NCBI GenBank assembly: GCA_017849435.1
Contig: JAFIGY010000009.1
Span: 310,001-374,000 of the forward strand
Direction: 5' to 3'
Length of the DNA stretch: 64,000 bases
From: Chitinophaga niabensis
GTDB lineage: Bacteria; Bacteroidota; Bacteroidia; Chitinophagales; Chitinophagaceae
Program-made: the position numbers and the translations under genes
Notes under the pieces: model-generated
The model's input: only the letters and a program-made list of their open reading frames with translations
Told to the model about the DNA's origin: nothing
Database searches by the model: none
In this document: in pieces, positions 18,026 through 22,510 of the stretch
How positions within the stretch are numbered: position 1 is the first letter of the stretch
Layout: every line of letters starts with the position of its first letter

Positions 18026-18688
18026 TTATTGCAGGGCGGCAGCCGCCTGTTTCATGATCTCTACGCTTGCACTGGCCCCTATGCGGGTGGCGCCTGCGGC
18101 AATCAGCTCCTGCGCAAAGGCAAAGGTACGAATCCCTCCGGAAGCCTTGATCTGTATATTGGCGGGCAGATGTTTTCGCATGAGGGCCACCGCTTCCACA
18201 CTGGCGCCTTTTTCCGCATAGCCTGTAGAGGTTTTCACAAAATCCACCCCATACCTGGCGTACAGCTCACAACATCTGATGATCTCTTCCTCCAATAATA
18301 TGCCACTTTCAATGATGACCTTGATCAACCGTTGCCGGTTGCGGACCAGCGGCATGATGGTGGCAATTTCTTTTTCGAGGTAAGTCCAGTCCCCATTGCG
18401 GATAGCCAGGATATTAACCACCATATCCACCTCATCGGCTTCATCAATGATGGTCAGCACGGTTTCGGCCACTTTGGCCTCTATGGCGGAATATCCGAAA
18501 GGAAAACCTGTAACGGTGGCTACTTTGGTTGGTGTGCCGCCTACAAAGGTTTTGGCAATTTTTACAAAAGGCGGAGGAACGCAAACGGCCGCAAAATCAT
18601 ATTCCACGGCTTCCATGCAGCATTTTTTTATATCCTCCAGGGTAGTGGTAGGTTTCAGGATGGTATGGTCTATGTAACGGGAAAACAT
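18026..18688 (-). CDS. deoC: Deoxyribose-phosphate aldolase
   Basis: DeoC cleaves 2-deoxyribose-5-phosphate to glyceraldehyde-3-phosphate and acetaldehyde in deoxynucleoside salvage. The 220-residue protein has family length and the class I aldolase barrel. Seen: SRYIDHTILKPTTT at the N-terminus, AAVCVPPPFV (about residues 33-42), VDMVVNI (about 90), and the Schiff-base lysine in FVKTSTGY (about residue 150). I use the ATG at 18688; a TTG two codons upstream lies inside the flanking repeat. The first base of the 33-bp repeat of the S23 element is only 3 bp upstream, so any local translation signal comes from that repeat. Confidence 0.95.
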   Translation of the reverse strand: MFSRYIDHTILKPTTTLEDIKKCCMEAVEYDFAAVCVPPPFVKIAKTFVGGTPTKVATVTGFPFGYSAIEAKVAETVLTIIDEADEVDMVVNILAIRNGDWTYLEKEIATIMPLVRNRQRLIKVIIESGILLEEEIIRCCELYARYGVDFVKTSTGYAEKGASVEAVALMRKHLPANIQIKASGGIRTFAFAQELIAAGATRIGASASVEIMKQAAAALQ

Positions 18689-18690
18689 GA

Positions 18691-18723
18691 TCAATTACGA
18701 ATTGTCAATTACGAATTACGAAT
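18691..18723 (+). repeat. Left 33-bp inverted repeat of the S23 element
   Basis: Begins TCAATTACGAATTGTCAATT and is the exact reverse complement of 19162-19194. It is built from repeated ATTACGAA-like units and provides the last four codons and stop of the S23 frame. Confidence 0.9.
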
Positions 18724-19080
18724 GGTGGATGGCTTTTTCAATGTTGTCTGGATGGCGCCGATGATTTTAAGCAATTCTTCATTATCCATCAAAAAAGATG
18801 TTGCCATGCGTTCGGATAGGATATTGCTGTCTTTCAAAAGGCGCAGCCAGTATTTACATTCCCTTGCCTCTCTGTAAGCGATAGAAAGTTTTGCTTTGAA
18901 ATCCTTCTTTGAAGATCCGCCAACGGCCTCTTCAACATTAGCGCCAATAGAAGTACCCGCGCGCAACAGCTGCAAAAACAAAGGCTTATGCTGATTATCT
19001 TCTTTTAGTCAATATTGAAACAACTTCACGATCCGCAAAGAAAAATGATAGCTTTTCTCCAAAAGAACATTTTGTTTCAA
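18709..19080 (-). pseudogene. Four-helix-bundle protein (23S rRNA intervening-sequence S23 family), interrupted
   Basis: The frame read from 19080 encodes KQNVLLEKSYHFSLRIVKLF, then Gln-Tyr and an in-frame TGA (plus-strand 19009-19011). It continues LKEDNQHKPLFLQLLRAGT and SIGANVEEAVGGSSKKDFKA, to a stop at 18709. Both halves fit the S23 four-helix-bundle family end to end, about 124 codons in all. The expected start is TTG rather than ATG. The intact frame therefore carries a single nonsense change plus a weak start, which points to a decayed gene; a sequencing error or readthrough cannot be excluded. S23 proteins are found inside 23S rRNA genes of some bacteria and as free genes in Bacteroidota; their function is not established. 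Confidence 0.75.
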
Positions 19081-19109
19081 AGGCTAACAAAATAATTATC
19101 AATGACGAC

Positions 19110-19132
19110 TTACGAATTGTCAATTACGAATT
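19110..19132 (+). repeat. Inner 23-bp copy of the S23-element repeat
   Basis: Matches 18695-18717 base for base in the same orientation and is the inverted complement of part of 19162-19194. With the right terminal repeat it can form a 23-bp stem just downstream of secA. Confidence 0.85.
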
Positions 19133-19161
19133 TCCTCAACTTAATAACTATTTAATTATTC

Positions 19162-19194
19162 ATTCGTAATTCGTAATTGACAATTCGTAATTGA
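19162..19194 (-). repeat. Right 33-bp inverted repeat of the S23 element
   Basis: Begins ATTCGTAATTCGTAATTGAC and ends 1 bp before the secA stop codon complement at 19196. Exact reverse complement of 18691-18723. Confidence 0.9.
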
Positions 19195-19195
19195 C

Positions 19196-22100
19196 TCAAA
19201 GGTCTTTACCGTGGCAGTTCTTGAATTTCTTGCCGCTTCCACAAGGGCAGGGATCATTACGACCTACTTTCGGGCCTACGCGCACCGGCTCGGAACGTAC
19301 GGGCTCCTCCACAGGTGCATATTCCTGTTGACGCTGACCGCCGCCGTTACCATTCTCAAATTCCTGGTGAGAGGCGCGCATCCGGCTCATATCCGTTTTT
19401 TCTTCATGACCTTCGGTGATCTGTTCATTTTCTCCCTGGCTGCCGGGAATACCACATTTGCAGAGGAAGGAAACGATCTCCTTGCTGGTTTCCGTGTTCA
19501 TTTGCCTGAACAGCTCAAACGCTTCGAACTTGTAGATCAGCAAGGGGTCTTTCTGCTCGTATACGGCGCTTTGTACGGATTGTTTCAGGTCATCCATGGC
19601 GCGCAGGTGTTCTTTCCAGGCTTCATCGATCAAAGCGAGGGTGATGCTGCGTTCCAGGGCGGCTGTTGTTTCGCGGCCTTCGGTGTCCACTACTTTCTTC
19701 AGCGGCGCCAGCACGTTGATGCCTTTTTTGCCGTCTGTGAAAGGAATGGAGATGTTTTCGATCTGATGACCCTGTTCTTTATAAATATTCTGGATCACGG
19801 GCAGGGTGGCGTTCGTTACTTCCGCCGTTCTGCGGTGATAGTTGGCGGTGGCTTCTGCATATAACTTCTCCGCTACTTCCTGCACATTGCCTTTGTGTAA
19901 CTCTTCTTCGGTAACCGTTGTGTCGATCGCGAAGTTCAGGATCGCATCCAGTTTGAATGCTTCATAGTCGCCGTTCTCCCGTTGGGTGGTAACGATGTTC
20001 TCGGCCACTTCATAGAAGGAATTGTCGATGTCGATGGCGAGGCGTTCTCCGAAGAGGGCGTGGTTACGTTTGGAGTAGATCACGCTACGCTGCTTGTTCA
20101 TGACGTCATCATATTCCAGCAGCCGTTTACGGATACCGAAGTTATTTTCTTCCACTTTCTTCTGTGCTCTTTCGATGGAGCGGGTGATCATGCTGTGCTG
20201 GATCACTTCCCCTTCCTTGTAGCCCATACGGTCCATCAGCGCAGCGATACGGTCGGAACCGAACATACGCATCAGGTCGTCTTCGAGGGACACGAAGAAC
20301 TGGGAAGTGCCGGGATCGCCCTGGCGGCCGGCACGACCACGCAGCTGACGGTCCACACGGCGGCTTTCGTGACGTTCTGTGCCGATGATGGCCAGACCGC
20401 CGGCTTCTTTCACGCCGGGACCGAGCTTGATGTCTGTACCACGGCCGGCCATGTTGGTGGCGATGGTCACGGCGCCGGCCAGACCTGCTTCCGCAACGAT
20501 CTGTGCTTCACGGGCATGCTGTTTAGCGTTGAGTACGTTATGCGGGACCTTTTCGAAAGTGAGCATTTTGCTCAGCAATTCGGAAACTTCTACGGAGGTA
20601 GTACCTACCAGCACCGGGCGTCCGGCAGTTTTCATGCCCTTGATCTCCTCGATTACCGCTTTGAATTTGTCGCGTTTGGTTTTGTATACAAGGTCTTCCG
20701 CATCTTTCCTTACAATAGGAAGGTTGGTGGGAATGGTCACTACGTCCAGTTTGTAGATCTCCCAGAACTCACCGGCTTCGGTAACGGCCGTACCGGTCAT
20801 ACCTGCCAGCTTGTGATACATCCTGAAGTAGTTCTGCAGGGTAATGGTGGCGAAGGTTTGGGTAGCGGCTTCCACTTTCACGTTTTCTTTGGCTTCGATC
20901 GCCTGGTGGAGACCATCGGAATAGCGGCGTCCTTCGAGGATACGGCCGGTCTGTTCATCCACGATCTTCACTTTCCCATCCATCACTACGTATTCCACAT
21001 CTTTGTCAAACAGCGTATAGGCTTTGAGGAGCTGTTGTACGGAGTGGATACGTTCGGATTTGATCGCGAAATCCTGCAGCAGCTGGTCTTTCCTGGCCAG
21101 CCGTTCTTCCGCTGACAGATCCTGCTTTTCCAGTTCTGCGATCTCTGATCCTACATCGGGCATCAGGAAGAAGTTAGGATCTTCACCTGCACCGGTGATC
21201 AGGGCGATACCTTTTTCCGTCAGGTCTACGCTGTTGTTCTTTTCGTCGATGTGGAAGTAAAGTCCTTCATCCACTTTCGGCATTTCGCGTTGCTGATCCG
21301 CGATATAATAATTTTCCGCTTTTTGCTGGAGTACTTTGATCCCTGGTTCGCTGAGGTATTTAATGGTAGCGCTGTTCTTGGGAAGGCCGCGCCAGGCGCG
21401 CATCAGGGAGAGACCACCGGTTTTGGGGTCATCTTTTCCTTCCGCGATGAGTCGTTTCGCTTCAATAAGGTAGCCGTTCACCACTTTGCGTTGCTCTTCC
21501 ACAAGGCGCTGGATGCGGGGTTTCAGAGCATGGAACTCCTGCTCGTCACCGCGGGGGATGGGGCCTGAGATGATCAGCGGCGTACGCGCATCGTCGATCA
21601 ATACACTATCCACCTCATCCACCATGGCGAAATGGTGTTTACGTTGTACCATTTCTTCGGGGCTGTGCACCATGTTATCACGGAGGTAGTCAAAGCCGAA
21701 TTCGTTATTGGTACCGTAGGTAATGTCCGCCTGATAAGCTGCACGGCGTTCCGGGGAGTGCGGCTGATGTTTGTCGATGCAATCCACGGTGATACCGAGG
21801 AATTCAAAGAGAGGCCCGTTCCATTCGGAGTCACGGCGTGCCAGGTAGTCGTTCACGGTCACGATATGCACCCCTTCGCCCGCGAGGGCGTTGAGGTAGG
21901 CAGGGAGGGTGGAAACGAGGGTTTTACCTTCACCTGTGGCCATTTCCGATATCTTGCCCTGGTGGAGCACATTACCACCGATGAGCTGCACATCGTAGTG
22001 TATCATGTTCCAGGTTACCTCGGTGCCGCCTGCGATCCAGGAATTATTCCAGGCCACTTTGTCACCTTCAATGCGGAGATAGTCTTTTTTAACTGCCAGC

Positions 22101-22510
22101 TGACGGTCGAGTTCTGTGGCGCTGGCAGTGATCACGGGGCTTTCAGAGAGGCGGCGGGCGGTTTCCTTTACAACGGCAAAGGCTTCCGGCAGCAGCTGGT
22201 TCAATATTTCCTCGATCTTTTTATCACGGTCCTTGATGAGTTTATCAATATCCCGGTAAGTAAGATCTTTTATGTTCACGTCCTCTTCCTGTTCGGCACT
22301 GGCTTTTTTAGCGGCGATATCCCGGTCCATATCGGCCAGGTATTCCTTAATACGGGCGCGGAGTTCCTGCGTTTTCCGGCGCAGGTCATCGATAGGCAGG
22401 GATGAAAGTTTTTCGTACGCCTCATTGATCTGCTTCACAATGGGGAGGATCAGCCGGATGTCTCGTTCTGACTTGTTTCCTCCAAAAAGCTTTGTTAAAA
22501 AACCTAGCAT
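19196..22510 (-). CDS. secA: Preprotein translocase ATPase SecA
   Basis: SecA drives post-translational export of unfolded proteins through SecYEG. The 1104-residue protein is larger than the E. coli enzyme (901), as is usual in Bacteroidota, with insertions in the N-terminal motor region. Seen: Walker [10 protein letters not shown] (about residue 191), Walker [22 protein letters not shown] (about 297), the helicase motif [13 protein letters not shown] (about 690), and [15 protein letters not shown]. The C-terminus has the zinc-binding SEC-C tail [17 protein letters not shown], preceded by a flexible linker. The start [17 protein letters not shown] is the family N-terminus. The stop is 2 bp from the S23 element. 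Confidence 0.98.

Follow-up and report, generated by a model that had tools for sequence, protein, structure and literature searches.

In Chitinophaga, the 7-bp unit whose arrays flank a resident gene of the S23 four-helix-bundle family (PF05635) is usually the one dispersed genome-wide, and across phyla each S23 subfamily is tied to its own heptamer family. We came to this from one stretch of Chitinophaga niabensis DNA (64,000 nucleotides, hereafter the window), in which a unit of positions 18691-19194, with a decayed S23 gene between inverted heptamer arrays, fills the gap between two genes that we take, from their sequences, to be secA and deoC. The occurrence of S23 together with matching dispersed repeats suggests an undescribed kind of mobile DNA. 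On balance we favor a system in which the dispersed heptamer elements depend on S23; it would resemble RAYT-REPIN systems (repetitive extragenic palindromic, REP, repeats with their associated tyrosine transposases) while being built on an unrelated protein, and the window unit is probably a decayed copy.

The heptamer of a resident S23 gene is usually the dispersed one

Four heptamer patterns were counted in 79 Chitinophaga genomes (G000 is that of the window), with one mismatch allowed for AATTACG. This heptamer reached 1995 matches in G050, 743 in G030, 453 in G077 and 295 in G076, with a median of 2 in genomes without an S23 match, and at least 40 matches were present in all six genomes whose S23 gene has AATTACG arms versus 13 of the 73 others. 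AATTATG occurs 301 times in G008, the sole genome with an AATTATG-armed S23 gene, and at most 14 times elsewhere. The four highest TTAGCTN counts (G023, 715; G010, 656; G059, 430; G028, 428; the next is 170) belong to exactly the four genomes in which TTAGCTN arms lie on both sides of an S23 gene, the gene of G010 being broken. AAAGCAK reached 1053, 406, 224 and 153 matches in four of the five genomes with the corresponding S23 gene, and at least 40 matches in four of these five versus 4 of the 74 others. Several contig starts of G008 (L275, G008:C15:1-95; C10 and C11) fall inside AATTATG arrays, so the draft probably breaks there and the true array number may be higher.

The match between each S23 locus and its own unit was reached in 0 of 20,000 permutations of unit labels among 16 S23 loci and again in 0 of 20,000 permutations of genome labels, although the genomes are related and the permutations are thus not independent of phylogeny. 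The own arms of S23 genes contribute a few matches each to the unit counts. This test omits G065 and G034, whose arms are of variant units, together with S23 loci without a clear unit, and the arm units of nine type-A loci (see below) were re-read as a recheck.

S23 subfamilies and their arms across bacteria

A scan of species genomes with an alignment of type-B S23 proteins, the subfamily of the window gene, returned at least 505 relatives, and the best 80 were kept; their sources are Bacteroidota, Ignavibacteriota, Balneolota, Calditrichota, Bdellovibrionota, Acidobacteriota, Verrucomicrobiota, Chloroflexota, Omnitrophota, candidate phyla and others. For 79 of these 80 loci (one was dropped for a short flank) we compared up to 250 bp of flank on either side and recorded the longest exact match in inverted orientation. 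It reached at least 12 bp at 50 of the 79 S23 loci (63%) against 15 of 719 other open reading frames (ORFs) on the same contigs (2.1%), and at least 16 bp at 28 and 7 of them, respectively; direct (same-strand) flank matches of at least 12 bp were found at 19.0% of the S23 loci and 2.8% of the other ORFs.

We then classified 141 S23 loci: 32 from Chitinophaga (two fragments omitted), 30 from a sample of the phylum and the 79 named loci. Among arms of at least 11 bp, AATT is contained in 72 of 73 of type B (eight of the 73 were unclassed by the motif rule and assigned to type B by eye) and in none of 18 of type A or 6 of type C. Readable type-A units are other short repeats, e.g., TAGCTTT, AAAGCAT and GTCCATG, and ATTT is found in five of the six type-C arms. 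In 48 genomes, reached from 50 named loci, AATTANNAATTANNAATTA gave 2308 matches versus 604 for the reversed control, lying above the control in 44 genomes, below it in 3 and level with it in 1. In a tree of 84 type-B proteins, the G008 protein is separate from the secA-deoC group, so that the AATTATG unit would come with a separate S23 lineage, its row being a long branch of unsure place in a tree with few columns and many open forks.

S23 genes were found in 298 of 395 genomes sampled in the phylum, many with at least 11 matches. Type C (L046, L048-L050 and L057-L059) is a third subfamily with an SVGANYRA motif and, at several loci, ATTT-containing arms; its presence also tracks AATTACG-rich genomes, and type-C S23 may be a second partner of AATTACG arrays. 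At one locus (L148, G453:C2), the S23 gene is flanked on both sides by long arrays of period 9, not 7. In a CRISPR-discovery paper, the legend of a figure includes "23S rRNA IVP" as a domain abbreviation (PMC10910872), and our guess is that heptamer arrays beside S23 may have been picked up as repeats in that survey.

Short copies without S23 and the replacement of intergenic DNA

In 400 kb of G050, 63 arrays resolve into 29 adjacent pairs, all forward-reverse, and 5 single arrays, and none of the 63 lies inside an ORF of at least 80 codons. The pairs are palindromes whose inner halves agree at 92% within an element and 68% between elements, and the G050 S23 element has a similar inner layer, its inner ends scoring 16.1 and 21.8 against the arms of the short elements (shuffled, 11.0 ± 0.7 and 11.1 ± 0.6). 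Of the ends that face a stop codon, 38 of 43 lie within 10 bp of it, 17 overlapping it; 15 of the 29 elements are situated between convergent genes and 1 between divergent genes, compared with 42 and 52, respectively, of 215 intergenic gaps.

A further 400 kb, from G030, holds 12 short pairs, and adjacent pairs are again all forward-reverse. At secA-deoC, G030 is ~93% identical to G013, and G077 is ~89% identical to both. At 7 of the 12 G030 sites, G013 and G077 share array-free intergenic DNA that is 71-92% identical (shuffles, 42-51%), and the G030 sequence resembles this DNA at shuffle level. Since G013 and G077 share the old DNA and G030 does not, G030 has swapped 62-149 bp for an element; in one of the seven swaps, 7-8 bp were replaced. 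Judged by eye from the relatives, the replaced stretches usually held a terminator-like hairpin. At the other sites, arrays are present in all three genomes (two sites), the element is present in G030 and G077 but not in G013 (one site), or the situation is ambiguous (two sites). A blastn control based on a single spanning alignment was uninformative, as 7 of the 12 element sites passed it against G013, and direct identity against shuffles was used instead. Terminal inverted repeats, as in miniature inverted-repeat transposable elements (MITEs), are present in the window unit, G050 and G030, and no target-site duplication is obvious by eye in the flanks of the G050 and G030 elements, 7 of the 12 G030 targets having been replaced.

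These positions also bear on an account without mobility, in which replication slippage and template switching at hairpins generate the arrays, the palindromes persist because they terminate transcription in both directions or form mRNA 3' ends, and S23 merely happens to lie nearby. The abutment of G050 elements on stop codons, the palindromic form, the variable length of the tandem arrays and the terminator-like hairpins seen by eye in relatives where G030 has copies would all suit it. Against it stand the arm-plus-core sequences that copies at unrelated sites have in common in G030 and G050, the subfamily-heptamer pairing and the own-unit match, and we regard it as improbable.

The dispersed arrays of the window's own genome

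Allowing up to 3 mismatches, a search of G000 for a 25-mer core gave 33 matches, 3 of them in the window unit, and 0 for the reversed-pattern control. Examination of 27 of the 30 matches outside the unit merged them into 20 distinct places, comprising 13 forward-reverse pairs, 1 forward-forward pair (L014) and 6 single arrays; no reverse-forward pair was seen among the 20. By eye, their arms are variants of one ~34-bp consensus that is similar in sequence to the S23 arms. The initial annotation of the window had counted occurrence of the repeat mostly without S23 genes as evidence against its proposal of a small mobile element, and this is what G000 presents, with one S23 gene and 30 of the 33 array matches elsewhere; a genome in which one S23 gene goes with many short S23-less copies would nevertheless look just like this.

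The unit in the window

The features of the unit and its neighbors are collected in Table 1. The initial annotation described a perfect 33-bp inverted pair at its ends, an inner 23-bp copy, a tight fit between the neighboring genes and a stop codon supplied to S23 by the repeat, and each of these was borne out: the pair is 34 bp, one base longer than claimed, the inner copy is exact, 1 bp separates the unit from the stop codon of secA and 2 bp from the ATG of deoC, and the S23 stop codon (18709-18711) lies inside the left arm. The idea of an exact 33-bp repeat as one conserved unit was rejected. The right arm reads AATTCGT AATTCGT AATTGAC AATTCGT AATTGA on the plus strand, i.e., a period-7 array of AATTACG-type units, and the 33-bp repeat is one composition of a variable array of this period. 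A core 26-mer (up to 3 mismatches) has three matches in the window, all within the unit, and 0 in 100 shuffles.

Table 1. Features of the S23 unit in the window and of its neighboring genes
Feature	Position	Strand	Evidence
Arm downstream of the S23 ORF; heptamer array TCAATTACG AATTGTC AATTACG AATTACG AATG	18691..18724		sequence
Arm upstream of S23; perfect inverted copy of 18691-18724	19161..19194		sequence
Third array copy, 23 bp exact, complementary to 19168-19190	19110..19132		sequence
Decayed S23 / four-helix bundle gene, PF05635, TIGR02436, type B	18709..19071	-	ORF and profile match
Open remnant of the S23 gene, 90 aa	18709-18981	-	ORF list
secA, upstream neighbor	19196..22510	-	ORF; name presumed from its sequence
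deoC, downstream neighbor; probable ATG 18686-18688	18026..18694	-	ORF; name presumed from its sequence

The PF05635 match of the S23 gene (18757-19071) contains one in-frame TGA at 19009-19011, and no usual ATG lies ahead of the conserved start; the window copy therefore reads as a pseudogene. Its 90-aa remnant scores 69.8 bits with PF05635 (cut-off, 33.8) and 77.1 bits with TIGR02436 (cut-off, 24), and the genome-level PF05635 match, with the one TGA inside, scores 78.7 bits. No further S23 match was found in the 5.0-Mb genome, in which the window copy is the sole one found. The S23 protein profile matches PDB entry 2rld (E 5.6e-42), composed of five chains of one sequence, and weakly matches 2gsc (XCC0516; E 0.26). 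For 2gsc, five four-helix bundles assembled into a pentamer are described in a paper that gives the function of S23 as not known (PMC4990558). By analogy with the solved homologue, the S23 protein is probably pentameric.

For the RNA of the minus strand at 19085-19200, folding gives -35.5 kcal/mol (z -5.97), as for a small solo palindrome beside the S23 gene, and two other folded stretches of the window are no more stable than shuffles. An Rfam scan of 18500-19400 gave 11 matches, mostly to microRNA families, with none at the gathering score, and a known RNA family was accordingly rejected for the unit.

The secA-deoC gap in relatives

The secA-deoC region was obtained from 75 of the 79 genomes and its gap is readable in 59; in the other 16, the secA end or the deoC start is missing from the stretch obtained. 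S23 is present in seven of the 59 gaps, broken in G000, G077, G013 and G076 and open in G030, G050 and G065. Four gaps have arrays without S23, namely G043, G061, G023 and G073 (one side only), and the array script found none in 48, three of which are just 23 bp. G019, ~93% identical to G077 at secA-deoC, has a gap that lacks both S23 and arrays. By eye, the terminator of secA is situated between the arms in several species, an arrangement for which a clean single insertion does not account. The proposal of a small non-autonomous mobile element therefore stands in part: the unit is element-like in its distribution over these gaps, whereas its S23 copy is broken and its array family is dispersed.

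Candidate movers

The possibility that a trans-acting enzyme moves the unit had also been raised. Y1 transposases are the usual movers of REP-type repeats, and the repeats studied here might be REPs moved by a Y1 tyrosine transposase, as in REPIN-RAYT systems, with which they share inverted pairs, intergenic location and many copies. Y1_Tnp (PF01797) has 28 matches in 19 of the 79 genomes, including the array-rich G030, G077, G076, G013, G018, G019, G060 and G078. It has no match, however, in G050, the richest genome, or in G065, G028, G059, G043, G034, G023 and G000; array counts show no association with Y1 presence (p 0.20), and the 10 Y1 loci examined of the 28 (one partly masked) have no AATTACGAATT within ~1.5 kb. 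Y1/RAYT as the mover was therefore rejected, and we consider it very improbable.

Several Y1 genes (L265-L272, in G030, G077, G019, G018, G060, G078, G076 and G013) lie near a GC-rich CCCAGGGCTGAAGCCCTGGGC-type palindrome, and these palindromes are a second repeat system in the same Chitinophaga genomes. The Y1 gene of G078 (L270, G078:C4:220700-223900) is flanked by long runs with a unit of several tens of bp, in which ggtagc...aatgt is combined with cgccccatagggg-like parts, unlike the other Y1 loci. G064 has nine Y1_Tnp matches of the same or nearly the same score and 0 AATTACG matches (the genome is 65% complete), and the set is perhaps an active IS200-like element.

Alternatively, a reverse transcriptase could be the driver and S23 its helper, in a role like that of Avd in diversity-generating retroelements. 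A likeness between PF05635 and Avd is noted in PMC10053308, and the window remnant matches bAvd (PF22296) weakly (E 0.11). A reverse transcriptase match is present in 63 of the 79 Chitinophaga genomes, and RNA copying would suit hairpin elements; yet reverse transcriptases are general in the genus, and the array-rich G043 and G078 have no such match, which disfavors a reverse transcriptase as a required partner. We judge this explanation unlikely, a little more so than the account without mobility. The trans-acting part of the initial proposal thus finds no support from Y1/RAYT, and we infer that the S23 protein, although broken in the window, is the best candidate trans-acting factor.

A proposed mechanism and a possible role of S23 as a passenger

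In the mechanism that we propose, an S23 element would consist of an S23 gene with an array of a 7-bp unit on either side, the two arrays mirroring each other, and the S23 protein would recognize the heptamer array or its hairpin and promote the spread of short elements in trans, as RAYTs are thought to do for REPINs. One possible route is that elements are captured where intergenic DNA is broken or tends to form hairpins, the old sequence being lost; forward-reverse orientation and lost old DNA would be expected if one sequence were added or captured at both ends of a break. The S23 gene itself seems to move rarely, to sit at a few safe sites (secA-deoC, argG-argC and metG-fadB) and to decay, leaving remnants such as the window unit. 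A broader proposal, put forward tentatively, is that S23 proteins are mobility factors of an undescribed class of mobile DNA, each S23 lineage recognizing its own heptamer and spreading hairpin elements built from it that replace hairpin-prone DNA, and that the intervening sequences (IVSs) of 23S rRNA genes, having replaced a hairpin loop of the rRNA, are the same element in an RNA gene.

Several observations weigh against an S23-driven system. All support for it is association; movement itself was not observed, and S23 has no known catalytic residues. Among the 19 AATTACG-rich genomes (at least 40 matches), 11 have no type-B S23, and three of the AATTACG-rich genomes (G018, G019 and G068) have no S23 match of any type. 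The AAAGCAK-rich G058, G014 and G039 (269, 156 and 137 across the three) likewise lack an S23 match, G038 carries an AAAGCAK S23 with just 7 AAAGCAK matches, and TTAGCTN reaches 170 matches in G043 and 144 in G061, in which no such S23 was seen. Type-A arms are weaker, with 18 of 44 loci reaching 11 bp or more. The core of the G030 short elements differs by eye from that of the G030 S23 element. In G000, the cores of the 12 distinct pairs with a core of at least 15 bp are mutually unrelated, at shuffle level, and not palindromic, and arms are no more similar within pairs than between pairs (p 0.66), so that whole-element copying is not visible there and simple MITE copying within G000 is unsupported. 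Remnants after S23 loss would explain most of the array-rich genomes without S23.

Some of these points would be natural if S23 were a passenger, with host or other machinery spreading the palindromes and S23 either carried as cargo inside such elements or dependent on the arrays for ends that serve regulation or RNA processing: the existence of array-rich genomes with no S23 match, the unrelated cores of G000, and arrays that persist at secA-deoC where S23 is broken in four of seven genomes. Such a passenger role, however, leaves unexplained both the subfamily-heptamer pairing across phyla and the prediction, by the resident S23, of which of four heptamers is dispersed; we consider it rather unlikely, if the least unlikely of the alternatives to an S23-dependent system.

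Relation to known repeat systems

RAYT-REPIN systems are similar in having a few-copy gene flanked by a genome-dispersed repeat, extragenic inverted pairs and a gene-specific repeat (PMC3116915). High-copy extragenic inverted pairs matching the gene flanks are found here too, as in G050, whereas the defining cognate Y1 gene is missing, PF01797 being unmatched in G000 and G050. Further differences are that the protein is a four-helix bundle and not a Y1/HUH transposase, that the arrays consist of AT-rich heptamers whose new copies can replace old intergenic DNA, and that the Y1 genes of Chitinophaga are separate from the system, several having their own palindromes. MITEs and the small dispersed repeats of cyanobacteria, including short tandemly repeated repetitive sequences, are short, non-coding, repeated, and palindromic or heptameric. 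Unlike in these, a single protein family pairs with the repeat, and no known transposase ends were recognized in a search limited to Y1. MITEs share their ends with an autonomous element; here, the short copies are similar to the S23 element in G050, and the core of the G030 short copies differs by eye from that of its S23 element.

The 23S rRNA IVSs, so far the best-known setting of S23 genes, also carry an S23 ORF in a unit with stem-forming terminal inverted repeats, which the 34-bp pair of the window fits. According to PMC4990558, the IVS takes the place of a small tetraloop in an rRNA helix. The window unit differs in being intergenic, outside the 23S rRNA gene, and in having heptamer-array ends and dispersed copies without S23. 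The TAACTGA heptamers of Beggiatoaceae, Cyanobacteria and Bacteroidetes are likewise 7-bp tandem repeats, mostly intergenic and in part from Bacteroidetes, and a horizontal origin has been suggested for them (PMC4679880); they differ in their heptamer and in orientation, the repeats reported there being direct apart from a single indirect one in the focal genome. The main text of that paper does not contain "S23", "four helix" or "four-helix", and a literature search limited to open-licence papers, among them PMC4679880, PMC4990558, PMC11270868, PMC10053308, PMC3116915 and PMC10910872, found no report of S23 genes paired with heptamer arrays.

If S23 turns out to be just a passenger, what remains is a small dispersed repeat of a new variety, whose passenger gene would have no explanation. 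The ties of S23 to its heptamer and to dispersed arrays give the family a testable function, namely repeat recognition and spread. If the S23-dependent system holds true, S23 would be a second, unrelated protein family with the RAYT-REPIN way of life; it would provide a source for the AT-rich heptamer repeats in Bacteroidota, offer an origin for the intervening sequences of 23S rRNA genes and represent mobile DNA that does more than insert, exchanging the sequence behind a gene for its own.
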